Below, piece after piece: positions 11,291-64,000 of a stretch of 64,000 nt of DNA. The notes under the pieces are model-generated. The model was not told the DNA's origin and did not search any database. It worked only from the letters and a program-made list of their open reading frames with translations. Source of the stretch: Isoetes taiwanensis (Eukaryota; Streptophyta; Lycopodiopsida; Isoetales; Isoetaceae); contig JAJEKV010000055.1 in NCBI GenBank assembly GCA_021234155.1, positions 3,031,090 to 3,095,089 of the forward strand. Direction: 5' to 3'. Numbering within the stretch: the first letter of the stretch is position 1; each line of letters opens with the position of its first letter. Both the position numbers and the translations under genes were made by a program.

Positions 11291-11374
11291 GGTCTCCGTG
11301 GACGATAAAAGACAAGTCAACTCTATTTATGGTCCATCTTGAACAAAGTAACCACTACGCTCGAGTTCACCAAT

Positions 11375-12816
11375 TCAAACAACAATGCCATCTGACTCCC
11401 AACTTCGAGGCGGTATGGTGTCGCCATATAGCACCCAAATCAAGCCTCCAGTGGCCGGAGTAGGATGCTCAAATATGTAACCGAATACATTATTGAAAAA
11501 AATAAGCTTTTGTGGGAGGTTGGAATGTCCAAGTCCAAATTCCCCAAATAATACAGGGCTTAAAATATAACATGGGCATCATGTTGATGCTCCCTAACCC
11601 AATCATGTGCATATTGAAGTTGGCCTTACAAAGTGCGAATCCAATTAAACCATTTTGGATAAAAATGGGCTGAAGCGTAATCAATGTGGGGGCTTCTGTT
11701 GTGTCTAATGAAATCAATTCCAGGATGTGGATCCTCTCCATTCACTCTAAGCCGTGAATTAGCAATGTAGAAAGCAAATGTTTGGCATCTATAGATTTTA
11801 TAAAAGATGGCATCTCATTGGTCCATGCCTCCAATGTATTCCCAGAAGTGTCATTATGACAGCGTGGTTCATTCAAGAGTTCCCAAGAGAAAATAGCAGA
11901 CTCTTCGCTATACTTTATGCCAGTGAAACGATTGGTTCTATTTAAGATCATGGGCAAAAGTATGCTGGTGGGTATCAAAAGCATGCGTCCGGACGCATGC
12001 TGACAGCACTCATATAGCACCCCATATGGCAGCTTGTTTAGGGTGTTACTGGTACTAGCACATGGTAATTAGGTAATCAATAGAAATATGTAACAGCTCC
12101 AATGAATGACAAGTGGAATACTATGATAGAATAGTACATCCGTGGTGCCTGAAGTCTTTGGGGCAGCGTTTTTGATACCCACCAAACTTTTTGCCTCATC
12201 TCAGATATCATTCTTGAAGAAGGTCTTTGCCTTCTCATTCGTAAAGAACAAGTCTTCAAGTTTAGAGTCGACAGGTGTAGATGAGTTCATGGCCCATTGA
12301 ACATACACAAGTGGCCAATTGTTACCAAAAGGGATGCTCTGAGATGACAAAATCAAGGCCTTCCATATTGGTATAGTTGTATTGACCAGGGCTTGTCTGC
12401 CAGGCATCCGATGCATTTTGTGCAGGAATATTATTCCGGCTATTGGTGCGAAATGCGTTAAACCCTCGAGCACGTGCACGCTCCAAAAAAGATGTTATCT
12501 CAGGCTAATTGCTTTGATTCAAGGCCATGTAGGGTAACCAAAAGGCATTGAATCCATGAACATAGTAAGGACGACCATTAAGAGTAAATTGAGTGCCATT
12601 GACACGAACCCAATCATCATTCTGATGTGGAGGAGGATTAGGGGCAGGGAACTGAGGGGCAGGGGGATGAGAACGGTTGTGGTGTGAAAAAGAACTAAAA
12701 GAAGGGAAACGAAGGGCAGCAGGGTGAGAACAGATATAAGGAGCAGCTTGGCATAAAGATAAAGTAGCAACTAGATATATTGATAAGACAATGGTGCTCA
12801 TGTTAAAAGAACCCAT
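11375..12816 (-). pseudogene. Mannan endo-1,4-beta-mannosidase (GH5), copy I, interrupted
   Basis: The product would be a secreted wall enzyme that cuts beta-1,4-mannan. The start at 12,816 is preferred over an upstream ATG because it puts a signal peptide first (MGSFNMSTIVLSIYLVATLSLCQA cleaved near AAP). A Pro/His-rich linker follows, then the GH5 mannanase start (NDDWVRVNGTQFTLNGRPYY, then VHGFNAFW). Next are LFFTNEKAKTFFKNDI and FSWELLNEPRC, with the acid/base Glu at 11,859-11,873. The C terminus has GEFG, the nucleophile Glu, at 11,534-11,545 and ends in WESDGIVV with a stop at 11,375. Breaks: an in-frame TAG after ALNQSN (12,505), frame changes around the SEH-PFGNN and LLST regions, and a 244-bp MITE between FFKND and MILNRTNR. 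No introns are seen, although plant mannanase genes normally have several. Confidence 0.85.
11952..12195. mobile_element. 244-bp MITE inside mannanase copy I
   Basis: The inverted ends are GGGCAAAAGTATGCTGGTGG.. and the complement of ..CCACCAAACTTTTTGCC, sharing GGTGGGTATCAAAA. TCAT is duplicated at both flanks (11,948-11,951 and 12,196-12,199). Units II and III have the uninterrupted site (near 37,130 and 57,230). A perfect 20-bp palindrome (gcatgcgtcc and its complement) lies at 11,981-12,000. The superfamily is not certain. Confidence 0.82.
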
Positions 12817-13561
12817 TATGTATATGAAATGAACAGATAAGACGTCTTCCAATCAATAACAGATGACTGTAGTAGTTCTTTTTCGAAAGCATTTTATAGC
12901 CTGCAAACCCTAGGCCTTAAAAGAAAAGATAGGCTTAGCTTGGCCCAACCTAAAATATACGAAGCCCATTTTGGATTCGCCATGTTAGACATCTAGCAAT
13001 AGACTTTTTTCGGCTAACTTAAAATATGTGAAGTCGATTTCGGATGGGGGGTACTATGTTCCATTAGTTTTTTTTTTTTAACAAAGCCTCTTTTAGATGC
13101 GACACCTAGCAATAGACTTTTTGGGCTCAAACTTAAAATATACAGTGGATTTTGGATAGCCAGATTAGTTTTTCTTTTTTTTTTAAATGCTGATTAGGGT
13201 TTGGTCGACCTCTTCCGCAATTGGGAAAGGTTGATATTCTGGAGAGACAGCCGATTTAATGTTACAAATTGGGAAAGGTTGATTTTCTGGAGAGACAACC
13301 GATTTCGTGCTTTTGTATCTGTCTCTGAAGGTTGAATACTTGAAATTAAATATTCGAAGTCAGTTTTTTTTTCAATATGTTTACATGTTTATATCGGAAT
13401 GGAGCAATGGCAAATTGTTTAGGGCTAACTCCAACAGCTTAGCAACAATTTGTGATTTTCGATTGGAACAAGTGAGTTTTCTTGATCGTATTCAGAGTTT
13501 CTTTTGGAGCAAGGCTTGCCACTAGTTTAAATGTAGTATCTCAAACATGAGGACTGCTGAA

Positions 13562-13563: not shown

Positions 13564-13614
<51 letters not shown>

Positions 13615-16372
13615 AAGGACGTCAAGCTTTATTCACCAACTAGAAACCAGAGCAACATAAATGCAAAGACGTGATTATAACCCCAAAGTGGACAAACCCG
13701 ATCCAACGAAAGCACAACCACACCTGCCTATGCAAAAGAATGAATCAAAGGTAAGTATGCGGATCGATACTTTCTTCTCTTGATCAAGAGAAGAACAATT
13801 GTAAACCATAACAATTTTATCTTGCGCCCACTGAAGAACAACCTCATCTGCAGTATCTATGCCCTTAAAGATAAACAACCTCCTTCTCTTCCAGATTGAC
13901 CATAAAAGCCAGCCACATGCGAGATGAAAAGCTCGTTTCCGTTGTTTGGGCCAAGCCAGGGTAAATTTTAACGGCCCTAAATATTTTTCTATTCAAATTA
14001 AGATTGGCTAAACCCATGAAAACAAAAGTTCTTAGATTTTTTTCTTGGCGAAATTTGATAAAATAAAGCCCTTTACTTATCTTCCCACTTGGCTAAAATG
14101 TAAAATTTATATGACATGAAATTATGATGTTGGCGAATTTTTCTTGGTCCCCAGCTAAATTGCAACTATTTAACTTCAAACTTTGAGCACTGATTAGTAC
14201 ATGAATGACATTGATTCAATATGCTTCTTTTACAAAATGATAACAAAGTTGTTCAAAGTACAATACATAAGGAACAAACAATATTGTTTGAAGGAACACG
14301 CATGTTTAAGTTGGTGTCAAATGCATCCAAATGGTGAATTTGGTGATGAAGCACTTTAGGGTGAACAATTGCAAGAAGATATCACTACTATTTAAAGCTT
14401 AAAATGCGCATCATATAACATTCTTCATAGCATTTAACCTAAACAACTTATAGATACAAATTCAAAATATGATTGAGGTAGCTAATGACAATTCCTAAAT
14501 AAAAGAGGTCCCTGAATAGAATTGGCATGGCTATTTGAATTGATCAGGGTTCTCCTAATCAACTTTAGAGAAGGCGATTCAGTACACCATGCAGCAAACA
14601 ATCCCGGCTAAACTCTAAGCGTTCAGAATTTACCCCCTTTTGGAGTGGCTAAATTATACTTTTTCTAAAAAAATTGCCTTTATAAACTTTAGCCATGAAA
14701 TTTGACAAAAGGTCTCAAAAATCGCCATTTGGCGAATTTTAGCCACTCTTTATTACCCTGGGCCAAGCATCAGGATAGATAGCAAGCAAAATTTGCTGGC
14801 TAGATCGAGACGTGCCAAAAAGGGTCAACAACCAAGACCATGCCTGCCGAAGCCTCTCACACAAGAAAAACAATGCTCAATACTCTCAACCCTTTGCCGG
14901 GCATAAAGGGCGAGCTCGAAATCCGATTATCCATTTTATGGACTAACCTGTTGACTCGAGGCATCTATCACCACAAAACTACTACTTTGGGGTGAAGCGA
15001 CCTTATCCCATACCCATATCCAAACACTTTTCCATTGTGGGAATGAGGGACCTGAAGATGCCATCTATTAGATGGAGGCAGGATTTCAGAATGCACAAGC
15101 AATTTATACACAGAAGACACAAACCGCCCTGGCTGGATATCCTGATGGCAACCCCATATGACTACCTCAATCTGTGGACCAGAATCCCGTGGCAACAATG
15201 CAGCAATATGATTCCAGATTACTCTGTCCCATCTGTACAACAAGAACTTTGTTCTAAATGCTTCCCATGACATGAGATGATCAGACTCATACCAAGCCGC
15301 AATAGTATTGATACCGGTGCTACCCATCGTCGTTGTGTCTTTGGATGAACAACCACACTTAGAGGCACATTCTCTGGAGTGTCCTGCAAAGGAATCCACC
15401 AACATGGAGTGGACAACTGAAGACATGCCTCAGGATTAATATGGAAAAGAGACCTGACAGTGTCCCAAGCAAGCAACCCCTTTAGAAAGGGAGAAGCATT
15501 AGGATACGGATGCATATGATAAAGCAAAGCCCAAGGAAGGAGGGGCTTAATGGAGGCCTTATGAAATGGGAGACAATGCTGAATCGACTGCACCAACAAC
15601 CTCAGGCCAGGAGAATCATCCTTACCAATGAAAATCCTCCAAATGAACTTTGATATCATCACCTTGCTTTGGAGGTGAAAATCCAACATACCAAGACCAC
15701 CAGCTGCCTTAGGTCTAATGCATTTCGCCCAAGCTACCTTGACCATCTTGCTCCTAACTCATTTCCACCCCAAATAAAATTTCCGACGATCGCACAATCT
15801 CCTCCATCTTACCTCTGAGGAGCTAGTAAAGGCATTTCCATGTAGACATGAGTATTACTAAGAACACATTTAGCCACAGTGATTCTACCGGGCATGGAGC
15901 CCAGTTTAGTCAGATTCCACCAAAACAAGTGCTTTTGCAACCCACCAATGATTTCATCCCAAGCATCCCCGGGCGAGACATGAATTCCAACTGGGATACC
16001 AAGCAACTTTGTGGTATTGCCATGCAGAAGAATCTTCCAAGGATAGTCCAAAATACAGGGAGGGATGGGACTGTCCAACGTCCACAAAGCTGTACATTTT
16101 TGCCACCCTACAAGAACTCCTGATGCTAAGGAGAATGTGTCTAATAATAGCTTAGCATTACGAAGATTCTCAGCCTCGGCAATTAGGAACAAAAAAGTGT
16201 CATCGGCATATTGGTTACATACCTCTTGAGAACCATCGTCCATTGGGAGGCCTTGAATAACGCCATCTTGGGTAGCCACGGAGAAGAGCTGGGACAAGAC
16301 TTCTGCCACAATTGTGAAAAGCAAGGGTGCTAAGGGACAACCCTGTCGAATTCCTCTAGAAGCAAACCCTAC
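13564..16372 (-). mobile_element. 5'-truncated L1-type LINE inserted in unit I
   Basis: On the plus strand it begins with 50 T (13,564-13,613), the poly-A tail of a minus-strand element. Moving 5' to 3' on the minus strand, the RT shows GIRQGCPLAPLLF (about 16,350) and the catalytic YADDTFLFL (about 16,200). The thumb shows LGSMPGRITVAKCVL (about 15,870). Then come KVAWAKCIRPKAAGGLGMLD (about 15,700) and a C-terminal region ending with CGWLLWSIWKRRRLFIF (about 13,850-13,920). Frames change several times, near 15,800 and 15,250 and where the hAT element sits. Unit II has the empty site near 38,485, so the insertion is specific to unit I. No clear target duplication was found. The long homopolymer tail suggests a young insertion. 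Confidence 0.9.
13957..14760. mobile_element. Non-autonomous hAT-like element nested in the LINE
   Basis: It starts CAGGGTAA and ends TTACCCTG, with an exact 8-bp target duplication GGCCAAGC at 13,949-13,956 and 14,761-14,768. The 804 bp are AT-rich and non-coding, with GGCTAAA and TTGGCGAA motifs repeated towards both ends. It interrupts the LINE C-terminal region and is therefore the youngest layer here. Confidence 0.88.
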
Positions 16373-17087
16373 CCTATTCTCTAGAAGCAAAATTAAAGTA
16401 CAATCGATATAATGAAATTCTCAGTCTAGATGTAGATGCAATTGCCTTGCTAGCATTTAGTATGAAGTAGTCGTTGATTTATAATGAGATATTAGGATGA
16501 CAAAAAGCAGCAAGTAGTCCACTTGTGTAAGCCGTGGCTTCTTTGAAGTGAACTACTTAATCCTTTCCAGTTTAAACTTCTTGTACGATTTTAACATTGT
16601 CAAACATATCTAGTATCCCCATGCTCAACTTTCAAGCATAAGGTATGGCCTAAAATCTTATCTTCTACAATTTTAGCTATGACATGCAAACATGACTTTT
16701 GATAAATTTGTCATAATTTTGTCAATTTTAAGGAATCTTTAAAATATTCCCTCTAAAATGTACTACACCGAAATAAGTCAAAGCTTTGTTTTGTTGCCAC
16801 ATGATCGCTTTAGTCTAGACTAACATCACAGCTCCTATATATTGGTAAGCAGCATTGATCAACGATACGAAAGATAAACATATAGATTTCTGAGTCTATA
16901 TTGAAGTAATATTTAGAGCCCTGTCAATCTTCATATTTCTTTGGTAATATTTCTACAAGAATGCTTAACATGTCAACCATTTAACCTTTTTAATTGATTT
17001 CTTCAATCCGGAAAAGAATTGCAATATTCAAACTTATTGCTACATAAAACCGAAAGAATCAATGAAAATTTTCACCACAGTTCCTAA
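16373..17087. other. Shared intergenic DNA 3' of the desaturase
   Basis: Conserved in units II (38,486-39,232) and III (58,550-59,267). AT-rich; no gene seen. Confidence 0.5.
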
Positions 17088-18492
17088 TTAAATTAGCAAA
17101 AGAATCAGCCAATGGCATTCACGACTTCCCACAAAAGTTCTTGGGAGCTGGTTTGGATAGATCACGTGCTTGTAGAGCCGAGCTTCTTAATGTGCTGATG
17201 ATCATTACATTGGCTTCCCAAAAGGCGACCGATTTGTAGGGCGATTGTATTTCTCACAAAGTGGCCTCGACAACCTTAGAAATCTTTCTCGATTGTGTCG
17301 AGGGAGACGAGGAAAGAGGTGATGTTCAATTTGGAATTGAGACCTCCATGAAACCGATCCATCCAAATAGGGAGGATATGTTTAATGTCCCCTCACTGCG
17401 GCTGAAACCACTCTTTTGGGTTGGCCTTGATATCTTGGAGATGAAAAGTGGTTCGCATTGCAATGTACATGTTGAATACTAGTCACCGCAGCTAATGATC
17501 ACAAAAAGGAGCCTTTCCCATGTTGAAGGTAAGTAGGAAAGGAGAGATAGAAACCACGTCCAATAAAAACCAAGTGCCATGATCTGGAGCACGCGATTTG
17601 ATATTCGCTTCTTTGATAGTAAAAAAAACCTGCTTTGACAAGACAGATGATTAATTCGCAAGCGCCATCACAAAGTAGAATGTCCAATGCTGATAGCTTA
17701 CTAGAGTTCGAGCTAAACCATCAAATTGCATTGTCCTCTCATAGAAGTAGGAATGCAAAGAAGAAAAGAATTTCAAGACACCGCAAAGAGTGGTATGTAT
17801 TGCGCATCGGGGTCATACTCCACACTATTGCAAGAAAAATGATGAGCATTATGGTTCCTCTTCCACCATCCAATATCAATTCCTCGCCAAACAATTTCCT
17901 ACTAGTATGCCAATAGAAGTATCTATTTTATAATTTCCAAGCATGCCACAATGTCCGGTGTCATGACCTATCCATCCCGGGCCTGTGACCATACTTTTGT
18001 CCCAAGTGAAATAGCACAAGCTACATGTACCCGGACATTCTTGGAGAAAACAACACCAAAGATGCAAAACAAAAAGCAATACAAGCATGGCAATCATGAT
18101 AAAGCAATAGGTGTGCACGGGCACCTTAAATAGTCCAAATTCTTTAGGTCTCCCAAAAGTTTTCTATGCTCTGCTTTGCAAGAGGTGTTACAATCAGAAT
18201 CGTTAGTGTTCCCACCAAATACTTTGGAAGAAGATGCCAGGTCTCTCGAGGATGGAATGCAAGAAAAGAATGCGAACATCCCGACCCGGCTAGGACTGAT
18301 TAAAGGGAGATCTCCACCGGGTGGAACTTAACCCATTCCTCATCACATCATACACTTTTCCCTCGGATGGAAATCCATAGATCCCGACCGGTATTATGTT
18401 TAGCAAGCTCCTTAGAAGTGATGGTTCTCAACAAGAGCATTAGCTCCATTAACTTCCTGATTCATCATCGAAACTCAATTGCCACCGGCCAT
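17088..18492 (-). pseudogene. Cytochrome b5-fused Delta8 sphingolipid desaturase, copy I
   Basis: The enzyme would introduce a Delta8 double bond into sphingolipid long-chain bases at the ER, fed by its own cytochrome b5 domain. The start at 18,492 is placed by homology to copy II. In order on the minus strand: the b5 domain (SKELAKHNTGRDLWISI, then a haem HPGG-type stretch near 18,320); EHRKLLGDLK; a hydrophobic helix (YCFIMIAMLVLL); His box 1 HDTGH (17,951-17,965); His box 2 HNAHH (17,839-17,853); LQIMALGFYWTWF membrane segments; WMDWFHGG; and box 3 QIEHH (17,319-17,333). The box 3 glutamine is the hallmark of front-end desaturases. The C terminus has ANVM and ALQARDLSNQ-like residues. Length would be about 460 aa, as in the family, without introns. 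Several frame changes break it. Most differ from those of copy II and sit at CAG/CTG triplets, so some may be consensus errors. Confidence 0.85.
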
Positions 18493-19004
18493 GGTTTCAC
18501 ACTGCTTTGAAAAGCACCATTATTGAGAATTAAACAACTTAATAGACATTCTATACTTATGCCACAAGAAATCTACATATTTTTAAAGTCCATGGCATAT
18601 AAACACCAATGTGGGTCAAAAGGCAAACAGCAAAAAGACATAAACATGGAGAAAACGCAGCATTGACTAGTGATGAATGTGATCTCCGAGCTAACAGGCA
18701 TTTAGAGCTTCATTTCTTTTGGCACATTGCAAAACCTACGAGCAAGAATAGATCTGAAAACTTACCTCAGAAGCCGCCAAGTTTAGTGCTGGCATGAGCT
18801 TATCAGGAAAAGAGGAGGTTTTGGCTTTAGTATTGGTTCATACCAAGTCCCGCACAGCAGTAGAGGAGCAATGACGGCATCATTTGGGTGATCCGGCACA
18901 AAAGGAACGGGACTTCAATGTTATCTGGTTTGATAAATGCTTTCAAAGGTTTATTGTATTCATTTGCTACAGTAGCCCGATGTATCTAGTCTTATCTTTT
19001 ATAT
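18493..19004 (-). promoter_or_regulatory. Desaturase copy I 5' flank
   Basis: Shared with 40,616-41,120 and 60,604-61,090. At about 19,005 unit I jumps to sequence that in unit II lies at 44,618. No promoter element was fixed. Confidence 0.4.
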
Positions 19005-19217
19005 GGTTAAAGGATACATATAGCTAAGCTGACCATTGAGTATTGATATCCAAATTGTTATATTAAAACACTAAATTAGTGAAGCCTATTTTATCATTTG
19101 GTATCAGAGCCATGTCTACCAGGCTGGGAGCATCACTGTTGAGTGGCATTGAGATATTTCAAGGAGAGGCTGGATTTCAAGTATGGAAAGGCAGAATGAA
19201 GGATGTATTAGGAAGTT
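19005..19217 (+). mobile_element. Ty1/copia fossil: LTR end, primer site and gag start
   Basis: A TGGTATCAGAGC primer-binding site (19,099-19,110; initiator-Met tRNA type) follows an LTR-like end (…ttttatca). It is directly followed by a gag-like start (MSTRLGASLLSGIEIFQGEA, then WKGRMKDVLG). The rest of the element is gone. Present also in unit II (44,618-44,835). Confidence 0.75.
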
Positions 19218-19221
19218 AGGA

Positions 19222-19385
19222 TGCTTTCACAAAATCCCCCTAACTTTCTAAAAATTCACAAAATGCCCCTAAGTAGTGCAAAATTCACACGGTGCACAAG
19301 TATGTATAGGGGCATTTTGTGAATTTTTAGAAAGTTAGGGGCATTTTGTGAATTTTGCAAAAAGTTAGGGGTATATTGTAGTTAG
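19222..19385. mobile_element. Palindromic MITE, damaged copy
   Basis: Same family as the element at 22,432-22,603 (ccctaactttctaaaaattc, gtgaattttgcaaaaagtta blocks), here incomplete at the left and with a short duplication at the right end. Copy in unit II near 44,845-44,998. Confidence 0.7.
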
Positions 19386-19402
19386 GGGTATATTGTATTG
19401 TA

Positions 19403-19475
19403 TGGGTCCCATGACCTATTGGTCTTCGTGGACGTTAAAAAAACTATTCTATTCTATTCTATTCTATTCCTATAA
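19403..19475 (+). mobile_element. SINE-like 3' end with TTCTA tail
   Basis: GGGTCCCATGACC..GGTCTTCGTGGACG then A-rich and (ATTCT)n matches the 3' end of the insert at 1,963-2,116. Only the 3' module is present. The unit II copy is at 45,015-45,080. Confidence 0.6.
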
Positions 19476-19576
19476 TTTTTCCCATGGGTTACTTCCCTCC
19501 TCATGGGTTCCATCTTTAGCACCCATCTGGTACTTTTTCGTGTTTTCTCCTTTTTTGTTTAGCTTTTTCCTTTAAG

Positions 19577-19846
19577 CTAGAATTTGCCACGGGAGTATGC
19601 TTGTTTTATCGCTTTTTGCAAATTTTTAACCTCAATTGGCAGATGACAACCATATACCTCACTTATAAGTTTTTGAAAATAAATCATTTCCATAGCCACC
19701 AAAATTCTCTTGCCCATCTTTGTGTTGGTATAAGTTGAGTATTCATTACTAAGGGGCATGCCAGGTGCTTTTGAGAATCTATGAAACTCGCATAAAGAAG
19801 GATATGCTTCCAATGGCTGGTCTCTAATTGCAACATAATACATCAA
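19577..19846 (-). other. Unrecognised open frame of 89 codons
   Basis: A minus-strand frame (starts MMYYVAIRDQPLEAYPSLCE, has KMGKRILVAMEMIYFQKLIS) is conserved in unit II (45,192-45,462), where a 4-base insertion shortens it. The composition is protein-like. No family is recognised; it may be a TE remnant or an exon. Confidence 0.25.
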
Positions 19847-22429
19847 TTACATAACATTCACAACTCTTATGTGCTCAATTTCAAGCATCTCATCAAATCT
19901 ACTCCATACTCCTACTCACCGAGTCTTGAATTGCATATCTTACAGACTGCATCAGAGAACTGCCAAATAACAATCTTTTCAAATGCCTAAAACAATTGTG
20001 AATTGTGACCATGCCCAAAACATTTGAAATTTTAGACTTGTTGAAATTATGTCTTACACCATGGAATCATCCAGTAGTAATATGGGTTGGCTCTAGCTTT
20101 GCTACAGTTCCAATCTCACAGATCCGTATAAAATGCATGGGGGCAGTTCGAATATATGTGGTGTATGCATTACTAGGCAGTAAGTAGCTCATAGAAAAAC
20201 ATGCTAAAATATGTACCCCTTCCCTCACAGATTTGTTTGTGCTGCATCTTTCTTCATTATCTATATATGTTCACTATCTATCTACGCAAACACATCAAAG
20301 TGGAATAAGCAAATCAGTTTACGAATCTATTTACAAAGTGGCCTATGGCATCGCTTGATCAAGCGCAGTGCCTGATCTACCGGCCGTAGCTAATTTGAGC
20401 GCCTCCAGCCTTAGACTTTCTGAGCAAAACACTTTCTTTTTACTATTCTTCAATATGGTTAGATCAAATGTTAGACTGGGCCCTCTTGGACATCCTTAAT
20501 GTTCCTAGGTCCTACGCGCCTACAACACGACCTCCTTTTTTTGAGACCGTTCATTTAGGTGCTCATTGGCACGACACAACACTCATGATGTTTTTGTCTT
20601 CTGCCTGTTGCCTCTTTTGTGAAAGACACAACACTCATGATGTTTTCTCTTAGGAACAGTCTCTTGGCAAATAGATGCATAATATTCTGGAGGGTTATGG
20701 AACTTTTGGACAAGATATTGTGGAGGGATCTTATTTCAGATGCTTTACATCAACATTTTTGGGCCATAAATGAAACTGCCCTTCATAAATGAAGAAGAAA
20801 CATTTGTAAACTTGGAGACAGGTATTGTACTTATTTTTATGGCTCTTATAATAGAAGTCAAAATTTGAGTTGCAAGACAAATTGCATAATAACTAGAGCT
20901 AATTTTGTCGTAAAGGTTGTCCTAATGTTGGAGTATTTATAGTTTAAATATGATATACAATGTTGAGAAGCAGTAGATTTTGTGTTGCGAGTGGGCACTT
21001 TTTTCAAATGAGCCAGGTTGCGATCGCCCTTCCAAATTCTTTGTAATTGTTTAAGGTTCAGCTATGCTCTTTTTTTTTTTTTTTTTTTAATTTTGCTATT
21101 CCCTTGGTGAAGGAACAAGTTCCGGGGCTGCACACTATAGAGTATATGGATGCAATAGATTATTGGAGTAATTAGACAACAAAATTCACTTGATTGTTTA
21201 GTAAAATTCACTTGATTCATCTTTCTTAATTACAACGACATGTTTGCTATGTCTCTTGATACATTATTTGCAGATACAACAATGCCAAAAAGTACAGGTG
21301 TAATAATGCCAAAAATACAGACATCATGAATTAAGAAACCACTTATTTTTCTAGTGTTTGCAATAAATTAGACGTTTATTATCAACATTGCCCATAAATA
21401 TAATGCATCATTAACAAGCCCAAAGTGAACATATGTAAAAATGCAAAAGCAGGTTGATCGGATCCGCTCATATTGAATTGAGACTTATTGTTTTATTCAT
21501 AAAAGTCCTTGCTCATTGTGGTGATTGCAATATCCCTTAGTCTTGTGGATGATGATTAATTCATTTTGTCTACATAGCATCTATGTAGATGCGATAGCAT
21601 ATATGTACATGTGATGATGTATAGAGGATTTGTGTGACATTTCGACATCATAGAAAAATAAGTATAATTTTTATTACAATATCATGGGCTCAATTAGCAA
21701 TTGTGAAATATTAGCAACACCCAGCACAGAGAGTACCACGGGCTTCCATAGATACACAAAAGCAACCAGACATACCTTATCCATAACAACAATGATGACA
21801 ACAGCTAGGAAAATATTTTGGTTATTGAGAGATGAGCGATGCACCACTAGGGCACCAATTCCTAGGATGCCAAATATTTCTGGACAATAGTATGATTGAC
21901 ACAGATGAACAATCTACTACCAAGTACTTGAAGCATTTGATTATTGCTTCAAGTACTTCAAAGGCAAATTTTAGATATAGTTAATGCCATTTCCACTGCC
22001 AGGAAAACAAGAACTACTACATCGCATGCCACAAAAAGTTTAAACTTCATCTTATGCCAAAAGTTTCAACTGGCTTGGCTGCTCTTTTAACTGCTATCTT
22101 TTTTTAGCTCCATCCATCCATCCATCCTGGAGACTGAGAGTTGATTGGCTTTGAGGTATAGCTTTCCTTGTGGTCTTACAGATCCTATGCCAGCTATATT
22201 ATATTTACCCTCATCCATGTGGGTTTGTGGCATATTCCAAGTATATGTCAGTATATGCTCGAAAACATGACTTTGAAGTGTGATTTAAGCCATTTCACTC
22301 ACGGGTCACGGAGGGCAACCCTCCGTGCGCAGCACCTTGTTACTTTCTTTCAAATTCGATAATAATAACAAGAGGGGATAATAATATACGGAGTGGATGG
22401 TTCGCGTGTAAATAAACACAAATATTTTT
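19847..22429. other. Intergenic DNA shared by units I and II
   Basis: No gene was recognised. It contains a direct repeat of an acacaacactcatgatgttt block (20,575-20,648), a T-run at 21,071-21,089, and a CCAT microsatellite (22,109-22,127). Confidence 0.45.
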
Positions 22430-22431
22430 TA

Positions 22432-22603
22432 GGGAAAAACTACAATATACCCCTAACTTTTTGCAAAATTCACAAAATGCCCCTAACTTTCTAAAAATTC
22501 ACAAAATGCCCCTATACATACTTGTGCACCATGTGAATTTTGCACTACTTAGGGGCATTTTGTGAATTTTGCAAAAAGTTAGGGGTATTTTGTAGTTTTC
22601 CCC
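22432..22603. mobile_element. 172-bp palindromic MITE
   Basis: Long inverted ends of about 55 bp (GGGAAAAACTACAATATACC.. against ..GGTATTTTGTAGTTTTCCCC) leave a short centre, so the whole element can fold back. TA flanks both sides (22,430-22,431 and 22,604-22,605). Non-coding. Confidence 0.82.
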
Positions 22604-22605
22604 TA

Positions 22606-44835: not shown

Positions 44836-44844
44836 TGTTTATTA

Positions 44845-48008: not shown

Positions 48009-48010
48009 TA

Positions 48011-48182: not shown

Positions 48183-48218
48183 TAATTATTATATAGACGC
48201 GGCAACTATAATGTTGTA

Positions 48219-51584: not shown

Positions 51585-52033
51585 TGCATGCATGCGACGA
51601 TGTATCGATGCATGCATGCCTTTTGAGTAAGAATGCCGATTCGCTATACGCCGAATCGACGATTATTCTTGCAATCGCTACTCGCATGAAACCAACAAAG
51701 CCCCGGTACCAAAGGACTTCCTTAACAAACTAGGATCGAGGACGGGTCACGATGAAGGCTAAAGGCCTAAAAAGGACAAAGCAGAAAGCAACGCCAATAG
51801 CCAAACCAGCAGAAGAAGCCCCCCCCGCCTCGAAACAAATCCAAGAGAATAAGGTACCGCCGAGAGAAGAGGAAGCGCCCGGCGAAACGCCGGCGAAGAA
51901 CTCCGCAATAAGTAGCAAACGCCCAACCTCAAGAACGCCTAAAACGTATGCGATGTATGTACGCGACGCGATGCAATGCATGCATGCTCGCCTTGAGAAG
52001 AATGCCGATCATTTCGCCGAATCGACGACATTA
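51585..52033. repeat. GCATGC minisatellite plus palindrome, unit II copies
   Basis: Arrays at 51,585-51,620 and 51,945-51,986 with palindromes at 51,629-51,668 and 51,999-52,033; shorter and more degraded than in unit I. Confidence 0.55.
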
Positions 52034-54988
52034 TTTGTAAAGCAAGCCAACCGCTACTTTGATTTTGGCCAAGGGTTGCATCACAATATGACACAACGAA
52101 GTTTCTAGTACAAGGAACCCCGCCAATTCTTTCAAGTGGAAAGGGATGATCCCAATGGCAGCCAACACTTTCCAGCCTTTTAGGAAAGGTGGATTATTTC
52201 CGCCTTCAACATCGATGCAAAGCAATCCGGGAAGCCGGTGGCAATCCCCGCTGTGCTTGTGCCCCTATCATTACCAGCCAATCCAATGGTAACATTGCCA
52301 AATGCTCCTACAATGACAAGTAACTATCAATATGGAGACACAAATTGCAAAAAGTTAAGGAAGAATTGACAAAGCAACTATTTGAATTATAACTCAACCG
52401 GGCATGGAGTAACGGAAATGTCCATGAACAAAAGAAAAGGGCCAATGAGTGGTGCATAAAGTGCAAGAGGCCATGATACCTCCCACATGAGTGTGGGAAT
52501 TAAGAGTGACAAACCAAATCTCAGGAAGAAGGAATCATATGGCCGCTACTTGCTATTTTAATTTAAACCGATAAGGGGGTGCAATACCTTCGCAATGGGT
52601 ACCATCGCATGAATGTACTTCATATCAAGTCCAACCTTGAGAAGAGCCCATCTATGTGCAAAACCCGGCCAGATCATTCAAAGATGCAATAGCACCACAC
52701 CAAGCAATGGGACCACGCCCGTCATATCAACAAAGAAAACCAATACAATGCTATCATTGCAAAACTTCGCATATTGCCAATGCAATGTCCTAATCCAAGA
52801 GCCCCTTGGACTATCAACCGGCAAAGAATTTGTCTCAAGTCAATGTCCACATAAATTAGAACCAAGAAGAACCAGCCAATGAGACAAAGGAAAGAAATCA
52901 AACGCGGATTCTAATGTCTGTATTTATTCTCAAAAAATCAATGGAAGAAAAAATTCCTCGATATGAAACACACGATAACGATGTAATAGCTAATAAATCA
53001 AAAATCAAGAATCTAGCGTAACACCTATTGTCCGATTCCAAAATGAAAATGAGGAAAATGAGGAAGAAAAGGAAGATCATATGATCCAAACCTGGAGGAT
53101 ATTCCAAGACCGTAGGGACTTGGCAAACTAAGGAACAAGTGGTGGAACAAAAATGCGAACAAAAAGGAAAAGGCGAGAGAGAAAAAAAGATTCACGACAT
53201 ACAAGAAGGTTTTACAACTTGAAGTGAACAACCATACTATATCTTGAAAGATATGAACAAGTCGACCATCTATTACCTTTGGACAACTCTTGAATTTTGC
53301 TCCAGGATGTAGAAACGCTGTGATGGTCGCATTGAAGGGCCAAAAAGAAGTGGTCATGAATTCAAAGATGGCTAGTAATTGCAGATATAAGTTCACCGTG
53401 GTTTGACTTGGAAAAATACACATCAATATCATGCCCAAACACATGCGGAGGGAACTGAACTACCCGAACCGTTCCACTACATTTTGTGGTCAAGATGGCT
53501 GACCAATGACGGTGAAATCAATTGGCATTATCAATCGAGTACGTGACATTGATAGCCAAAAGATCATGTTTTATGTGGACTATGTGGTCCTAAAATGGTG
53601 ATGGAGGGAGCATTGGTCTATCCTCTACTACTTGGGAGACCTTGGCTAATACAAGCCCAAGCCAAGCATGATCAAGTAACCGGATTATTGATCATAGGAG
53701 ATGGAAACAATGCAGTTTCGTAAAAGTGCATATCTCAAGATTTTGGTGGCGGGACAAGTCCAAGAGATTGATAGCTTATATGAGTTCCAAAGTGATGATG
53801 AGGAAGAAGAATTTCTTGGACGATGAGGAACAAGAGGTGGCTCTTCTAGCTTTCAGAAGAAAAAGGGATACCAGGTTTTACAATTACGACTCTCTTATAG
53901 GGATGACACTTCAAGTGTTGTCCTTGATGAGTGGTTGCAAGCTAGAGCGAAATTAGACTGCTCTATGGTGGAAATAGAAATGGAACCATCAACTCAACAA
54001 CAATTGCAAAAGAAGGAAAAGAAAGCTCGATGGAAAGCCTTGAAGATATCCAAAAAAGAAGAGGAACCAAGGGCACATATGCTAGAAGGGGATAAGTTAA
54101 AAGAATACCCTCCTTATTTCTTTGAAGCTGAGGAAGGAGACATAAAGTTAAACGAGGAGCCAGCTTACAAAGTAGTTGGCAAAAGCAATATGCTGGAAAG
54201 TTTAGAACCACCGGAAGTCATGGAATTGAATTTGGGCACGAAGGAAGAGCCAAGAGTGGTGAGAATAGGAGCTTAACTGCCAGAAGAAGAGAGGCATCAA
54301 TATCATATCCTATTTGGAGCCTATAAAGACATGTGTGCTTGGAGTTATAAAGATTTACTTCGAAATCAAAACCAACTTTGAGCCAACATCGCATCACGCT
54401 TGGTAAATGCACAACTCGCGGAGACAAATAGGTTTATCTGGATGAACCCTAAATATAGCAAGGCAGTAAGGGAAGAGATTGATAACTTATTGAAAGTAGG
54501 ATTCATCATTGCAATGGAGGGAAGCGAGTGGCTATCTCCAATAGTGATAGTCCACAAGAAAAAAGGAAAGATAGAGTTTGTGTGAATTATCGGAAACCTC
54601 TTGCCGCATGATGAAAGATGGATTTCAAAGACCCTACAAATCGATGCGAAGATTAGATGAAGTGGGGGGCCATGAGCTATACTTTTTATGGATGGATTTA
54701 GTAGTTACAAACCGTGTGTCAATCACTCCAAAAATCAAGAAAAAGACCGGCTTTTGTAACCGAAAGGGGTTGCTATCTATACAAAGTAATGCCATTCGGG
54801 TTGTGGAATGCACCGATAACTTTCTAACAGGTCATGACCACGCGTATTTAAAGATTTCTTAAAAGACTTTATAAAGTCTTCCGACGACGGTGATCATGCA
54901 TGTACGCCTTTAATGGAACATCAAAAAATTGGAAAAGTATTTTCTCAAATCTCTCGAGTACAAACTTTCGATAAACCCTCTAAAATGT

Positions 54989-55539
54989 ACATTAGAGGAA
55001 AAATGAGATCACATTTTGTCCCATTAAGGGATGCTTAAAATGCCATGTCATCTTTTAAACCGGCCAATAAGAGAAGAGCTCCGGTATATCTCATTCCAAT
55101 TATTATGTGGCACTTTGAATTAATCTGTTTTTACAACTAACTCATAGTATCATTTTTCATTATAACTTTTGATCCCGAACTCCGATTCAAAAACTTTTGT
55201 AGCAATGGGTTCGCTCTTCACAAGAATCTATCTAGTGATAACCCATTCATACATCTTTTACCTATATAAATATATAAGAAATAAGCAAAAATCATATTTT
55301 TAAGGTTAACGATATGACCATATTGAAATACATCATAACCATATATCATTGGAAAGATCTTTTCATTCCGCGATCTAATGCAACAAACGCCGCAACATTT
55401 TGACAAATGGATCAAAGTTATGGGGAAAACAACAACAATGAAGTTGTTGGTGCTGCGTTAATTGCAGCTAATAGAGGATAGCCATTCCATTGGAGGATTC
55501 TTATGGGGATGCAATGAGATCTCAAATTTCCTCTAATGT
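54989..55539. mobile_element. Inverted-repeat element inside gypsy RT (copy 3)
   Basis: Counterpart of 30,042-30,598 at the same position of the unit II gypsy fossil. Confidence 0.68.
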
Positions 55540-56693
55540 GTCTCTGAGTTGAAAGGGCTGTTGTTTGACGGGAAGTGACGGAAAAGGAGCAATAGATCCG
55601 AGGGAGGTAAAGGTTATTAAAGATTGCCAACACTAGAGGAAATGAAGCAAATTGCAAGCCGCCCGGGCCATCGTGGGATAATGTCCGGCGGTATGGATTT
55701 GGCCCTTCCAACCACTAACCTATTGAAGAAAATAGGGTGGAGTATCACTGAGCAAGAAATGTCAAGAAGCCTTTGAAGAATCAAGAAAGCTTTGACAAAC
55801 CCTATTCTCGAAATGGCCAAAGGGGACACGAGTTCCATATCCATGTAGATGCTTCAGCTTTGCTATCGAGCATACTCTCCCCAAAAAGCAAGAACAAGGA
55901 TGAGATCATCCCATATTATGCAAATAGACAACCCGACAAAGGCCAAAAAGGAATTATTTTACAAATGTAACGAGAAGGCCTTAGAATGATATATTCTATC
56001 CAAAAAGTATCGATAATTACCTTTGGGCAAACCATTCATGTTCTACGTGATCACCGGGCCCTAGGAAATTTGATTTTGAATCCATCTTTGAACTAGAAAA
56101 GATAGTAAGAGGGCTATTGCTTCGCAAAAGTTCGGGTTAAAGTGGTGTTAAAAGCCGGAAGTTCCCATGTGGGACCGGATCATTTGTCAAGATTACCACA
56201 GAAAGGAGCAGAGGAAGCGAAGAAGGGATGAACTACGTGTGGAGCTATTCGAGATAGAGGCAGTACCGAGAATGGTATGAGGGTCAATGCAATGCTTAAT
56301 GGCCGGTGAGTTACCCGGGATCTCACCACAAGAGAAGAAGCGATTGTCCGGCAAAGAAGTCGGCTATACCATGTTAGGCGGAGTGTTATACAAACAAGGA
56401 CATGATGATATTCTAAAAGATATGTGTTTGCCTCACGCAGGTCAGGCGAATACTGAAGATTGTCATAGAGGCCCATGGGGAACATGGGCGGTAGGAAGGC
56501 CTCGTAGGTTATTGGTGGTCTACCTTATAGATGTGAGAATCGTAAGAAATAGCGATATGTCAATATGAATCGGAAAACCTATGAGGATGAGATCGTGCCT
56601 TTATTCCATTGTGTCTCAGAGTGGGCAAAGACAAGTCAACTCATTTATGGTCCATCTTGAACAAAGTAACCACTACCTTTCGAGTTTACCAAT

Positions 56694-57815
56694 TCAAACA
56701 ACGATGCCATGGGCTCCCAACCAGGCGGTATGGTGTCGCCATATAACACCCAAATCAAACTCCGGTGTGGGAGTAAGACATAAAATATATAGCGATACAT
56801 TATTAGAAAAAATAAGCTTTTGTGTGAGTTGGAATGTCCCGATCCAAATTCTAAATATCTGATTTCTGCAAGCCTCTTTATGGGCATCATGTTGATGCTC
56901 CTAATAATCTATTACGCCTTTGAAGTTGACCTTTCAAGGTCTTGATCCAATTAAACCATTTTACGGATAAAATGATCAGTATTTGGAACTACGTACAATA
57001 AATTGATTCCAGGATGTGGATCCTCTCCATTCACTCTAAGTGAATTAGCAACAATGTAAAGAAAACAAATGTTTGGCATCTATAGATTTTATAAGGAAAT
57101 GGCCTCATTAGTACCTCCAATGTATTTGAAGTGTCTATTAGTATGACCATTGGTTCATTCAAAAGTCCCAAAATGGCATGGGAGCTCTTGGTTCTTTATG
57201 CAGTGAAACGATTGGTTCTTCGGAATCCTTGTATATCATTCTTGAAGAAGATCTTTTCTCATTAAGGCTGAATCTTCAAGTTTGAATTGACCCGGTGTAG
57301 ATGAGTTCATGGCCCATTGGGAACACTTTGGTAGCCCATTTGTACCAAAGGGATGCTGGGATAGTATTGACAAAATCAAAGCCTTCCATATTAGGCCCAC
57401 ATAGTGTAATGCAACCAGAGACTTATGGGGCATAGATGCATTTTGTGGGGAATATTTATTCCTGACTATTGATGCTGTATCACGTTAAACCCTAGAAACA
57501 GTGCCGCGCGCTCCAAAGATGTTATCTGGGGCTAATTGCTTTGATTGAGGCCATGTGGTGGCAAAGGCATTGAATCCGCGAATTATAATGGGGCGACCAT
57601 TGGAGTAGAATTGAGTGCCATTGACAGGCCAATCATCATTGGTGGTGAGTTGGTGAGGCGAGAGGATGAGAAGCGGTTGTGGTGTGAAAAGGAGAACTAA
57701 AAGAAGCGAGAGAATGAAGCGGTGAAGCGGATATAAAGGAGCTTGGCTAGCATAAAGATAAAGTAACAGTAGATATATTGTCTAAGACAATGGTGCTCAC
57801 AATGTTAAAACCCAT
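56694..57815 (-). pseudogene. Mannan endo-1,4-beta-mannosidase (GH5), copy III, eroded
   Basis: The start (57,815) and end (56,694) correspond to those of copies I and II. Only short islands remain readable: QWAMNSSTP near 57,310, the ALNQS-N region with the shared TAG at 57,532, and a WVLYGDT island near 56,740. The NEPRC stretch can no longer be read. Many small insertions and deletions scatter the frame, so no function is expected. Confidence 0.75.
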
Positions 57816-59267
57816 TATGTATATATGAAATGAGCGGATAAAGGCGTCTTCAATCAATATGATTAATGTTGTAGTAGTTCTTTTGCACCCGAGCATTTTA
57901 TAACTTTTGCAAACCCTGGGCATAAAAGAAAAGATAGGCTTAGTTTGGCCCAACCTAGCTCTCTGAAACCCATTTTAGTTACATACATTAGTACTATCTA
58001 ACAATAGAACCTTCCATTAACCTTGTGAAGTCCGATTCCGGTTAGATACTTATGTTTGGTAGTTTTTAACAAAAGCCACCTCTCTTTTAGATCACGACAC
58101 CTAGCAATAGACTTTGAGCTCGAACTTACAAATGTCACGGTGGATTTTGGATAGCCAGTTAGTTTTTCTTTGAAATCTTTGATTAAGTGCGACCTCTTAG
58201 CGGTGGGAAGGTTGATGTGCGGAGAGACAGCGGATTTGAAGTGTTACCCAGGTGGGAGAGGAGTTGATTTTCACAGGAGGCAGCGATTTCCGTCTTTTGT
58301 ATAAATGCGAAGGTTGAATGCTTGAAATTGAAATATTAGAAGTCAGGTTTTTTTTCCAATATGTTTGCATGTTTGTAATAGAATGAGCAATAGCAAATTG
58401 TTTAGGGCTAACTCCAACGGCTTAGCAACAATTTGTGATTTCCGATAGGTGGTAGGTTTTCTTGATCGTATTGAAGTTCTTTGGAAACAAGAGCTTGCCA
58501 CTAGTTTAAATGTAAGTATCTCTCTCAAACATGAGGGCGTGCGAACCTTACCTATTCTCTGAAACAAAATTAAAGTACAATCGTGTAATGAAATTCTGGG
58601 TCTAGATGTGAATTACGGTGCTAGCATTTAGTATGAAGTGATGCGTTGATTTATAATAGAATGAGATGACAAAAGCGACAAATGATCCACTTATTATGGC
58701 CGTGTAGCTTCTTTGAAGTGAACTTCACTTAATCCTTTCCAGTTTAAACTTCTTGTACGATTTCTGCTTGTCAAACATATCTAGTATACCCATTCTCGGC
58801 TTTCAAGCTTATAGGTATAGCCTAAAAATCTTATCTTCTACAATTTTATTTATGACATGCGGTGACTTTGATAGATTTGTCATAGTTTTTACCACGTCCC
58901 GATTTTAAAGATCTTTTGAAATATTCCTCTGAAATGTGCTACCGGGAATAAAGTCAAAGCTTTGTTTTAAAGTTGCCCACATGATCGTTTAGTCTAGACT
59001 AACATCCGACTCCTATATGTTGGTAGCGGCATTGATCAGCGATCTGAAAGATAAACATATGGGTGCAGTCTATGTTAGTAATATTTGGGAGGCCGTCAAT
59101 CTTCATATTTCTTTGGTAATATTTCTACAAGAATACTTAACATCGCGACCATTTAACCTTTTTAATTGATTTCAATCGAAAAAGAATTACAATATTAAAC
59201 TATTACTACATAAAAGCTGAAAAGAATCAGCGAAAATTTCACCTTGATTCCTAATTAAATTAGCATC
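57816..59267. other. Mannanase 5' flank and intergenic DNA, unit III
   Basis: Counterpart of 37,745-39,232, with the tandem 48-bp copies still traceable near 58,200-58,290. No gene. Confidence 0.45.
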
Positions 59268-60603
59268 GGTAATGGCATTCCACGACTTCCACAAAAAAGT
59301 TCTTGGGAGGCCCGAAAAAAGTTTGAATGAAATCCTAACAAGTGCTTGTGGTAGAACTGCTTAATGTGATGATCTGTTACATTGGCTTCCCAAAAGGCGG
59401 CGGCCCGGTTGTAAGGCGAATTGGCATTTCTCACAAAGTGGCGACAACCTTAGAAATCTTTCCGGTGTGTGGGAGGCGAGGGAAGAGGTGATGTTCAATT
59501 TGGAATTGGAACCTCCATGAAAATCGATCCATCCGGCTAGGGAGGATATGTTTAATGTCCCCTCACGTGCGAAATAACGGCCTTGATATGGAGATGAAAA
59601 GTGGTTGACGGGGAATTGTGCATCGCGAGGCGATCCAAAAGCTAATAATCCGCAAAAGGCCTTTCCCATGTTGAAGGTAGAAGTAGGAAGGAGATAGAAA
59701 CACGTCAATAAAAACCAAGTGCCATGATAAGGCAACGATTTGATGTCGCTTCTTTGATAGTAAAAACGCAGTTTGGCCGGTGATTAATTACGGCAACGCC
59801 ATCACAAAGAAAATGTAATGCATTAACACTAGAGTTCGAGCTAAACCATCAAATTGCATTGTCCTCTCTCATAGAAGTAGGAATGCAAAGAAGAATTTCG
59901 AAACAACGCAAAGGTGAATAATGACTGCGGATCGGTCATACTCCACCTTGTGCAAGAAAATATTGAAGCATTATGGTTCCTCTTCCACCATCCAATATCA
60001 ATTCACCTTGAAACAATTTCCTGCTAATTATGCCGATAGAAGTATCCCATTTTATAATTTCAAGCATGCCACAATGTCGATTAATGGCGACCTATCCATC
60101 ACTTTTGACCATCGCATCCCAGTGGGGTAACGACATGTACGAGAGACATTCTTCCAGGAAAACAACACCAAAGATGCAAAACAAAAAAGCAATGCAAAGC
60201 GTAACCCAGTCATGATAAAACTGACCAGGTGAGGCACCTTAAATAAAGATCCCGACCTTCTTTAAGGTCTCCCCAAAAGTTTTCTGTGGCGGGGGTTGTT
60301 ACCTTGCTATGTCGGTGAGTGTTCCCGCAAATGCTTTGGAAGAAGATGCGAATCTCTCCGGATGGAATGCAGAAAGAATGCATGGCCAACATCACGACCC
60401 GACTAAGTGATTAAAGGGAGATCTCCATATAAGGTGGAGCTGCTCCAATCATCACATCATACACTTTTCCCCGGATGAAATCACCGTCAGCCCCAAGGTA
60501 TTATGTTTATGACTCCTTAGGAGTGATGATGGTTCTCGGTTACGAAGAGCATTAGCTCCAATACGATTCATCATCGAAAAAGCTGTCAATTTACCAGCAT
60601 CAT
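59268..60603 (-). pseudogene. Cytochrome b5-fused Delta8 sphingolipid desaturase, copy III, eroded
   Basis: The ATG at 60,603 matches the starts of copies I and II. Readable islands include GTLNISS and a frame-shifted IEHHL region near 59,490-59,500, an SWKNV stretch, and a hydrophobic segment near 60,190. The other two histidine boxes and the haem motif are damaged. Numerous small length changes break all frames. A pseudogene, unless the consensus here is very poor. Confidence 0.72.
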
Positions 60604-61591
60604 GGTTTCACACACTTTGAAAACACCATTATTGAAATTAAACAACTTAATAGACATTCTATGCGCATGCCACGAAAATCTACGTATTTTAAGTCCATAG
60701 CATATAAACACCAATGTGGAGTCAAAACCAAGCAACCAAAAGACACCGTAAGCTTATGGAGAAAAGCGAGGGCATTGACTGGTGAAACCGGATCTCACGA
60801 GCTAACGGGCATTTGGAAGCTTCTTTTGGCACGTTGCAAACCTAGAGGCAGGATGGTCGGCTTGCCGCCAGGGCGTAAGGTTTGGTCAGTGCAGCATGAA
60901 ACTATCGGGAAAAGAGGAGAGTTTTAGCTTTGGCGTATTAGTTCATACCAAGTCCACCACAACAGTAGAGAACAACGGGCATCATTTGGGTGATCCGGCA
61001 CAAAGGAACAGGACTCAATGTTATCTGGTTTGATAAGTAAAACCAAGAGTTTATTGTATTCATTGCTAGCCCGATATTATCTAGTCTGCTCTTTTATCAC
61101 TACCTATGTAAAAACACATTCTATTTTGTTCTTAAAATTGGATATTAGCCAATATTTCTGAGTGAGAAGAGCCACAGCTTATTACCGATACATTATTTTG
61201 CGTTTTTTCTAAAAATCGAAAAGGAAAAATCCTTTACTCACGATAATGATGGCCCAAACCAGAAGAAACCAAGGCGCCTCTGTTACCTATTCTACGTCAC
61301 CTGTTCACGAGTGCAAGCAATGATCCGGCGACTGTTGCGGATCATTGCTATCGGAGGATAACGGTAAATAAAGTAAAATAGATATTTTACTTTCTTCGCT
61401 TTCTTGCTTTAGAGCTCTGGGCACCTCTTTCGCCATATTCATCCTTCAACCTGCAGGTGCGGCTACTTTCTGTCACACCACAGCTAAATCAGCCCAGATC
61501 TGTAAAATTGCCCTCTCTTCTTCTTCAATTTTGATCCATTATAGACCCTGGTCAGGGACTTCAAATAGGAGCTTCAAATCAATTTTCGATA
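60604..61591. other. Intergenic DNA between desaturase and third gene, unit III
   Basis: Counterpart of 40,616-41,640. No gene; the 5' UTR-like region of the third gene is at about 61,400-61,590. Confidence 0.4.
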
Positions 61592-63063
61592 ATGGCTTCG
61601 CGAATGCTCTTATGCCGGATCATGCTGTCCACCATAACAACATCCTTTCTAATCCCTAGGTCACAGCTGTACATTCCACAACTTGGCATCAGAGGCCACC
61701 GTTTTATACAATCAAGCTGTACATGCCAAAATCAGGGAGGTGAGCATTCTAAAATTCATGTTCCGGCTGTTTGAGTTAAGTCGAGAATTTCATGCAACTG
61801 ATGGGCTCTGGGATCTCAGGTTAGCACTTCTGGTTTGTGGGTCTCAGATTTGCCCAGCTATGATATAGATGAACTCTTCCCCTCTTTCTTTAGCTACGGA
61901 CGTTTTTTCTCTGTGAATAATTTTTCTCTGTGAATAGCCATTCAGGTTGCGTCAAGATTCAGCACTTTTGCTGCTAAAATTTTACAACTTCTTCAAACAT
62001 AGCCGCATAACTTCTTCAGAAACATGGCCATAACTTCCTCATATGAATCTATTTTGTGTGATGACGCTTGAATTTGGAGGACTCGGGGATGCAAGGCCTA
62101 CCAATGCTAGGCGCGGTTTCCGCAAATTCTAACATAAATCGGTCAGAAGAGACGGGTACGCATCTCCCACCACCGGGGTACTCTGAATTCTACCTCTTCC
62201 TTTTGCTGTTGTTCAGCTGGAGTCTTGCACCACTATTTACATGAACAAGCATTGCATTGCTGCGATCATAGGAGTAATGTCATTATTACTAAGTATGTCG
62301 CTGAACAACTTGAATAGAAACAAAAACAGATTTCTGGTGCCAGGTAAAGCTATCCTCTGAACACTTGTTCTTCCTTCTAGATTGTTTGTCATTGGTTTTG
62401 GCATGATATAAGGTACTCAAAATTCTTAGCTATTTTGAAATGTTGAGAAACTAGCTTTTTTGCCAGGTCAATGTTTCTTTTGAAATCTTAGCATAACCTA
62501 GGAATTGAGGTGAGTTCTGCTAATTTGTATCATAGAGGTACTCTAATGGACTGTAAGAACTTGCAAGCAATTTTGGTTTGAAAGTTGTTCTATCTCAAAG
62601 GAACTCATGTTTGCAGCGTTAGACTTGTGGTGCATGATTGGACTATTTACATACTTTGTTTGGAGGTTGAATGTAATGCGGGGCATTTGAATTAGAATTC
62701 ATTTTGTGAAAGCGACATTCTCCCAGTAAACAAATACTACCATTAAATTAAATGTGGTATTCTATAGCGAAGATCGTTGTTCATCTTAATCTTTGGCCCA
62801 TCGAATTGAGATGCATCTATGCTAGCGTTCCAAATGCGCTTGCAGCGTTTGGCGTGCCCATTTTAAAGGAGATGATCTTTGGTGTATTTGAGACTTTCTG
62901 CGTACTGTTAAAGTGATTACTTGGATATACATTAAAAGTCCCCTTTCTTGTCGCGGGCCATGCATCCTTGTGTAGTTTTAGAGCTGAGAAATGAGTCATA
63001 GTGCAATATAGAATAATGAAATGAAGCGTTTGTCCTCCAACAGCCACCCTCGGGTGCCGAAGC
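61592..63063 (+). pseudogene. Unassigned gene start, copy III
   Basis: Exon 1 (61,592-61,819) begins MASRMLLCRIMLSTITTSFL, a transit-peptide-like N terminus, and keeps the CTCAG|gttagc donor. It has stops before the donor (PAV then TGA). The exon 2 counterpart (about 62,957-63,063) has lost its acceptor and frame. Family unknown. Confidence 0.4.
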
Positions 63064-64000
63064 GTAGAGCCCTCACCCTATATTACGCCTGTGCATTATC
63101 TGGGAAAAATGCCACTTTCCACTTTCAAAAGTGATTTTTTATTGAAGCGTGGTTGATGGGACTTCTGTATACCATATACCTCAAGGTGATTTTAATGATA
63201 TAGAAAGTCAGTATTTTATAACACAAAGATGTTCTTGGTTGCCGAGTTTTTATGCAATGGTTCAGGATGGCAACTTACGATTACGTTCCTTTTTTGTTGT
63301 CTTTGGATATGATGGATGAGAAACGATATAATAAAACTTTAACTATAGAAGCAAACTCTTAGGCTTTCTTGTACCAACATGTTTTGAAAAAAATTAAACA
63401 AAATATTATGTGAATAAATTTTTCTCCTTAACTACCGGCCTAGGAGGACTCAATTTGAAATTTCCTTTTTACCCAATCTTTTGCATTTGATATATTGTTT
63501 AAGGAGTTTTAGGAGCTTCGGAATGGAGAATAGAAGAATTTGCAATACCCACAGTAATGGATGCAGAATCAGGAATCAGATCTGAAGGTTGCAATACCAC
63601 AATAATGGGTGATCCGTTTTTCAGTCATGTAATTCAACCTTGATCTAGCTTTAAGGATTAAAAGCCACTACTTACACTGCATCTAAAGGAATAGTATAAT
63701 TGCCAACAATGAAGCTTCCTATTCAATAGCTTCGTCTTCTAATGGCAACCCACTTATTACCAACTTTTGTAATAGTGGAATTTTTAGAATCAATGATGGA
63801 ATTTTTAAGCCATGCATAAATACCCAGCAACTTTGCTCAATGATGGAATTTTAGAATCATGAATAGCCACCTTATGTTATTTAGGTGCTTTAAAAATAGA
63901 CCTTGCCTATAAAGCATGAATCATAAAAGCATCTAAGATACATACCTTTGGATCACTACTTACATTTGATATTAATATTTAATTACATATATAAGTCCAA
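63064..64000. other. Tail of window, intron-like or intergenic
   Basis: Counterpart of 43,104-44,055 with the same local duplications; no gene. Confidence 0.4.

Follow-up and report, generated by a model that had tools for sequence, protein, structure and literature searches.

The window analysed here is a stretch of 64,000 bases of Isoetes taiwanensis DNA with 39.8% GC and zero N. Comparison of the window with itself by self-BLAST revealed three copies of one unit in the same orientation, whose first segment, the A block, starts at 11,292, 36,468 and about 56,616. A sequence-only reading had placed these starts at 11,291, 36,468 and 56,616, which agrees with the alignment to about one base, and the comparison of the window with itself that it had advised recovers the head-to-tail copies. 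Copy I (11,292-36,467, plus strand; 25,176 bp) follows a left flank that is not repeated in the window. Copy II (36,468-56,615, plus strand) measures 20,148 bp, and copy III (56,616-64,000, plus strand) ends at the window edge after 7,385 bp. No gap of N lies between copies in the window. In all three, the A block is followed by a mannanase-like and then a desaturase-like block; in copies I and II these lead on to additional sequence and to a gypsy-type element in degenerate form. An ordered set present three times, as first described, is thus correct for order and orientation, but only two units can be followed over their full length. Likewise, the blocks are shared, but the set of genes and fossils is not identical throughout, as the units differ by insertions, an internal duplication and missing segments.

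The letters at the junctions are informative. An identical fusion, in which a fragment of the gypsy integrase is joined to the A block, opens copy II (36,467/8) and copy III (about 56,615/6). In copy I the A block begins at this same base, with other sequence before it. Tandem duplication predicts such a repeated gypsy/A junction and a first copy that is reached from a different flank; the copies are adjacent and similarly oriented, and the same end-to-start junction stands between successive copies. The identity between copies I and II, far beyond chance, amounts to 98.6% in the A block, 98.1% in the mannanase block, 93.7% in the desaturase block, 95.1% over 18,995-22,780 and 91.4% in the gypsy block, in agreement with the earlier description of both units as very similar. 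The A block at 11,292 is 75.9% identical to the copy near 56,616.

The left flank contains remains on the plus strand at 12-1,063 and 3,800-4,156, which resemble LINE reverse-transcriptase sequence. The open reading frames (ORFs) 12-494 and 425-1,063 of the first overlap in different frames, and the second gives a zf-RVT match (0.0073) below the cut-off. A catalase-like fragment at 7,068-7,376 (plus strand; Pfam 1e-4, below the curated cut-off) is perhaps a piece of a pseudogene. Pfam was given 20 ORFs of the 187 with at least 70 aa. Rfam at gathering scores and ARAGORN with the bacterial code gave nothing in the window.

The mannanase remains belong to the GH5 family and lie on the minus strand. 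In copy II (36,468-37,780), the ORF 36,922-37,422 matches the endo-beta-mannanase 1rh9 with 1.5e-25, among 16 matches to solved sequences with E <= 0.01, and the ORF upstream of it matches the start of the 1rh9 chain with 2.4e-6; the Pfam Cellulase score (0.0034) is below its cut-off. The counterpart in copy I (11,292-12,852) is broken by a 253-bp insert with inverted ends (11,952-12,204), private to this copy, as seen by self-BLAST and in the letters. In copy III the region (56,616-57,800) is noisy. The translations contain an in-frame stop, NQSN*, common to the three copies, and copies I and II have further frame breaks after it, so that an intact mannanase frame is absent. As the stop is shared, the inactivation of the mannanase predates the duplications.

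The desaturase-like remains are also located on the minus strand. The block in copy II (39,236-40,468) matches Pfam FA_desaturase with 1.2e-5 and 25.6 bits, under the curated cut-off of 29.7, and a QFQIEHH box is visible in its translation. In copy I, 16,700-18,900 was translated to look for the same remains. No intact desaturase frame was found in the ORF list or the translations, the PDB sequence search yielded no relative of the desaturase, and NCBIfam matched none of five proteins. The ORF 40,151-40,468 was tried with Pfam for a fused cytochrome b5 domain, to which we presume a likeness, and had no match. The attribution to sphingolipids comes from a likeness that we likewise presume, and the label is not established. 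Altered dosage of mannanase and desaturase genes, suggested earlier as a consequence of the repeat, is unlikely, given the stop common to the three mannanase copies and the lack of an intact desaturase frame. No literature combining tandem duplication, mannanase, sphingolipid and desaturase was found.

The right part of copy I (25,500-36,467, plus strand) is occupied by Ty3/gypsy-type remains that run from gag (25,500-25,787; Retrotrans_gag, 3.6e-5) to the integrase zinc-binding domain (35,911-36,438; Integrase_H2C2, 2.8e-11). The element is truncated at the join, the integrase zinc-binding frame stopping 29 bases short of 36,468. One 101-aa fragment tried between gag and integrase had no Pfam match, and a scan of viral contigs with the gypsy fragment 34,091-34,393 returned two pattern matches and zero confirmed relatives. 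The gypsy sequence of copy II extends over 51,581-55,952 (plus strand) and is moderately noisy.

Several structural differences separate the first two copies. A LINE insertion private to copy I (about 13,564-16,361, minus strand) bears a run of 50 T at its left end and matches RVT_1 (8e-10); no clear target-site duplication was seen at it. Copy I is missing 3.5 kb that are present in copy II at 41,123-44,609, and also in copy III as far as seen, and a similar short sequence lies on both edges of this segment. Copy II is without approximately 0.6 kb that occurs in copy I at 22,781-23,386, where it is flanked by two AAGAAC words. Within the gypsy sequence, about 4.7 kb are duplicated in tandem in copy I (26,351-35,775, plus strand), with a short word common at the junction, and this internal duplication is private to that copy. 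Both copies contain an element of approximately 155 bp, composed of repeat units of roughly 29 bp, which flanks about 3.3 kb of sequence on both sides in inverted orientation. It is located at 19,229-19,383 and 22,438-22,593 in copy I (96.8% identity) and at 44,844-44,995 and 48,017-48,169 in copy II (93.5%), and looks like transposon ends.

The divergence along the repeat was read in 500-base steps of blastn alignments. Between copies I and II, substitutions amount to 0.6-1.7% in the A and mannanase blocks, 0-4.1% in the desaturase block and over 18,995-22,780, and 0.8-6.7% in the gypsy block. Copy II is itself moderately noisy over 38,482-56,000, with many 1-bp indels relative to copy I. From about 56.1 to 63.8 kb the comparison with copy II gives 8.4-16.2% substitutions and 3.7-7.8 gap events per 100 bases, and the final 168 bases of the window give 3.0% substitutions. 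As a whole, copy III differs from both other copies by 20-28% in global alignments and by approximately 12% substitutions in blastn. Change points fitted on the alignment of 31,388-44,059 with 51,581-64,000 were placed at 56,200 for the strand signature (support 55,965-56,251; log-likelihood gain 34.6) and at 56,466 for the rate (support 56,190-56,468; gain 180). Past the change point, 1747 of 8075 alignment columns differ, approximately 22%. The noisy tract (56,200-64,000), which carries a plus-strand nanopore-type error signature, therefore starts within the gypsy sequence of copy II, some 150-650 bp ahead of the join (56,616). Since both change points lie left of the join, the noisy style is a property of a tract of the assembly and not of the third unit.

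A three-way comparison assigned changes private to one copy, with Ia and Ib as further control copies; columns gapped in one or more copies, or with all three differing (19 in the I/II/III blocks and 16 in the gypsy blocks), were dropped before counting. Among 899 private substitutions in copy III, 347 are A<->G, 146 are C<->T and 406 are transversions spread over 8 types, that is, about 174 for each A/G type, 73 for each C/T type and 51 for each transversion, and A<->G differs from C<->T with p=6e-20. The controls lack such asymmetry, with A<->G to C<->T ratios of 18:11 in I, 19:18 in II, 20:16 in Ia and 22:24 in Ib. In copy III the ratio is 119:49 in the mannanase block and 86:28 and 98:32 in the desaturase blocks; the A block alone, in a MAFFT alignment, has 44:37 (p=0.51) and no A<->G excess. 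The blastn alignment gives 243:74 over 56.6-61.1 kb and 121:62 over 61,098-64,000, the latter stretch lying outside the three-way counts. Over the 416 bp that precede the join (56,200-56,615) the ratio is already 21:6.

In nanopore reads, taken in read orientation, A-G substitutions occur three to five times as often as transversion errors, and C-T substitutions are a bit more frequent than the latter (Delahaye and Nicolas, PMC8486125). Except for the A block taken alone, copy III follows this profile, with A<->G raised within that range over the transversions and C<->T slightly raised. It shares with uncorrected Oxford Nanopore sequence, as far as described in that source, the read-oriented A<->G excess, the mild C<->T excess and, over part of its length, the altered errors at methylated cytosine contexts. 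Its total difference, however, exceeds the figures given there for quality-filtered reads; the global error is 5.7% with high-accuracy basecalling, so that approximately 22% of differing columns needs a poor read or an old basecaller (PMC8486125). No relevant literature was found on nanopore strand bias or on CHG miscalls in plants.

Other indications of read error were considered and put aside. Clustering was dropped as a test, as substitutions are overdispersed in all six copies (index 2.2-3.8). Homopolymer shortening is suggestive but not clean. The 48 runs of at least 5 bases in copy II are shorter in copy III in 17 cases, equal in 13 and substituted in 20, in classes that can overlap, and the 34 such runs in copy III are shorter in copy II in 11 cases, equal in 15 and substituted in 8. 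Single-molecule PacBio error was thought less likely for copy III, given how many of its differences are substitutions.

The context of the cytosines provides a second line of evidence. Private C->T changes in I, II, Ia and Ib affect 2-8% of the cytosines at CG/CHG, with strands counted separately, and 0.2-0.8% at CHH, the pattern of methylated plant DNA, from which a plant source was inferred. The values for copies I and II are 5.1 vs 0.5% and 6.8 vs 0.7%, so that CG/CHG exceeds CHH by 4.6% and 6.1%, from 49 and 65 private substitutions, respectively. In copy III, C->T changes were found at 49 of 358 CG/CHG cytosines (13.7%) vs 173 of 1361 at CHH (12.7%), an excess of 1.0 +- 4.0%. By hand arithmetic, at the ratio of copies I and II a true branch with 899 substitutions should have lost about 58% of its CG/CHG cytosines. 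An ancient copy requires decay in proportion to its divergence, and copy III does not show this. Changes of CG/CHG cytosines to A or G, or their loss, are moreover strand-biased in copy III between 56.6 and 61.1 kb, with 82 of 194 on the plus strand (42%) vs 33 of 164 on the minus strand (20%; p=8e-6); this bias is absent from 61.1-64.0 kb (12.5 vs 10.6%). The gypsy sequence of copy II has the reverse bias in its non-C->T changes at CG/CHG (17/211, 8%, on the plus vs 40/189, 21%, on the minus strand; p=3e-4), despite which its A<->G to C<->T ratio of 68:76 is without asymmetry. Errors at the methylated cytosines of the strand being read would explain such strand-biased changes, which decay does not. 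Given these minus-biased changes and its indels, the private frameshifts of copy II are untrustworthy too.

Copy III agrees with copy II at the 49 sites private to copy I and with copy I at the 65 sites private to copy II. At 13 sites that differ between copies I and II and lie in locally clean text of copy III, the latter is I-like in 7 and II-like in 6, and one spot reads CGG in copy III, CAG in copy I and TGA in copy II. Copy III is therefore probably not a second reading of either copy I or copy II. Three versions in a diploid mean that more than one locus is involved, and this speaks for a real duplication. The letters of copy III are best understood as a third copy in raw or insufficiently polished form, probably no older than copy I or II.

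The reading that accommodates these observations, to which a probability of about 0.83 is given, is that dead genes and transposon remains were duplicated head to tail and that the third copy is represented by raw or barely polished nanopore sequence. A unit of 20-25 kb, with a dead GH5 mannanase and desaturase-like and transposon remains, would have been duplicated head to tail, an event that would join its right end, within the integrase of the gypsy element, to its left end. The few percent of divergence between copies I and II would have arisen later, from C->T decay driven by methylation, from the LINE that entered copy I and from deletions at short repeats. Beyond about 56.2 kb the text would be mostly a plus-strand nanopore read, entered via the gypsy sequence and crossing the same junction into the third copy, and most of the difference of copy III would be read error. 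Head-to-tail copies, a junction repeated at the base level, divergence of a few percent and later insertions and deletions are likewise seen in segmental tandem duplications of plant genomes; nothing in the tests sets the window apart from these, the extra divergence of copy III being mostly read error. Both the nanopore platform and the true tandem arrangement are inferred, and so is the identity of copy III as a third array unit or another haplotype.

The adjacency of copies II and III constitutes the weakest link, as the noisy tract is entered within gypsy sequence that recurs in the window. It is possible, though doubtful, that the sequence from 56.2 kb onwards is a noisy read across a genuine gypsy/A junction of another haplotype or locus, attached to copy II via the recurrent gypsy sequence, and that only copies I and II are in tandem. 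The change of style inside the recurrent gypsy sequence and the difference of copy III from both other copies would fit such an origin. The tract nevertheless crosses the exact gypsy/A junction, as a further unit of the array would, although this does not discriminate with certainty.

A false duplication of the whole repeat, in which the assembler would have strung together both haplotypes of a single locus and a noisy copy of it, is rather unlikely. Haplotype divergence and read error have been described as creating false duplications in assemblies (PMC9516828), and the cases treated there resemble the window in having copies side by side, one of them with read-error text. The structural variants between copies I and II also resemble haplotype differences, and copy II is itself moderately noisy. 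The window departs from those cases, however, in that there is no N gap between the copies, the base-level junction occurs twice with copy I starting at that same base from another flank, and copy III is distinct from copies I and II; if the plant is diploid, three versions are hard to derive from a single locus. The earlier caution regarding an assembly artefact was nonetheless well placed for unit III.

The description of unit III as much more diverged applies to the letters but not to evolution. A truly old copy that diverged neutrally long before the split of copies I and II would account for the 20-28% difference from both and for the balanced, outgroup-like sharing of their alleles (49 vs 65). 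This origin was rejected as quite improbable, since there is no CG/CHG decay excess (1.0 +- 4.0%), the 347:146 asymmetry contrasts with four symmetric controls, and the change of style starts ahead of the join. It is scarcely credible that the differences from about 56.2 kb are real DNA, produced by a strand-biased purine-transition hypermutation of one array unit that spilled a few hundred bases past its edge.

An ordinary segmental tandem duplication for plants, combined with an artefact of assembly quality, is the most likely verdict for the locus. When three copies of a repeat are available, the strand asymmetry and the cytosine context of their private substitutions separate methylation decay from nanopore-type error without recourse to the reads. 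Copy ages and pseudogene calls derived from such noisy tracts would be wrong. The biology of the locus looks ordinary, and the useful point is a forensic one.
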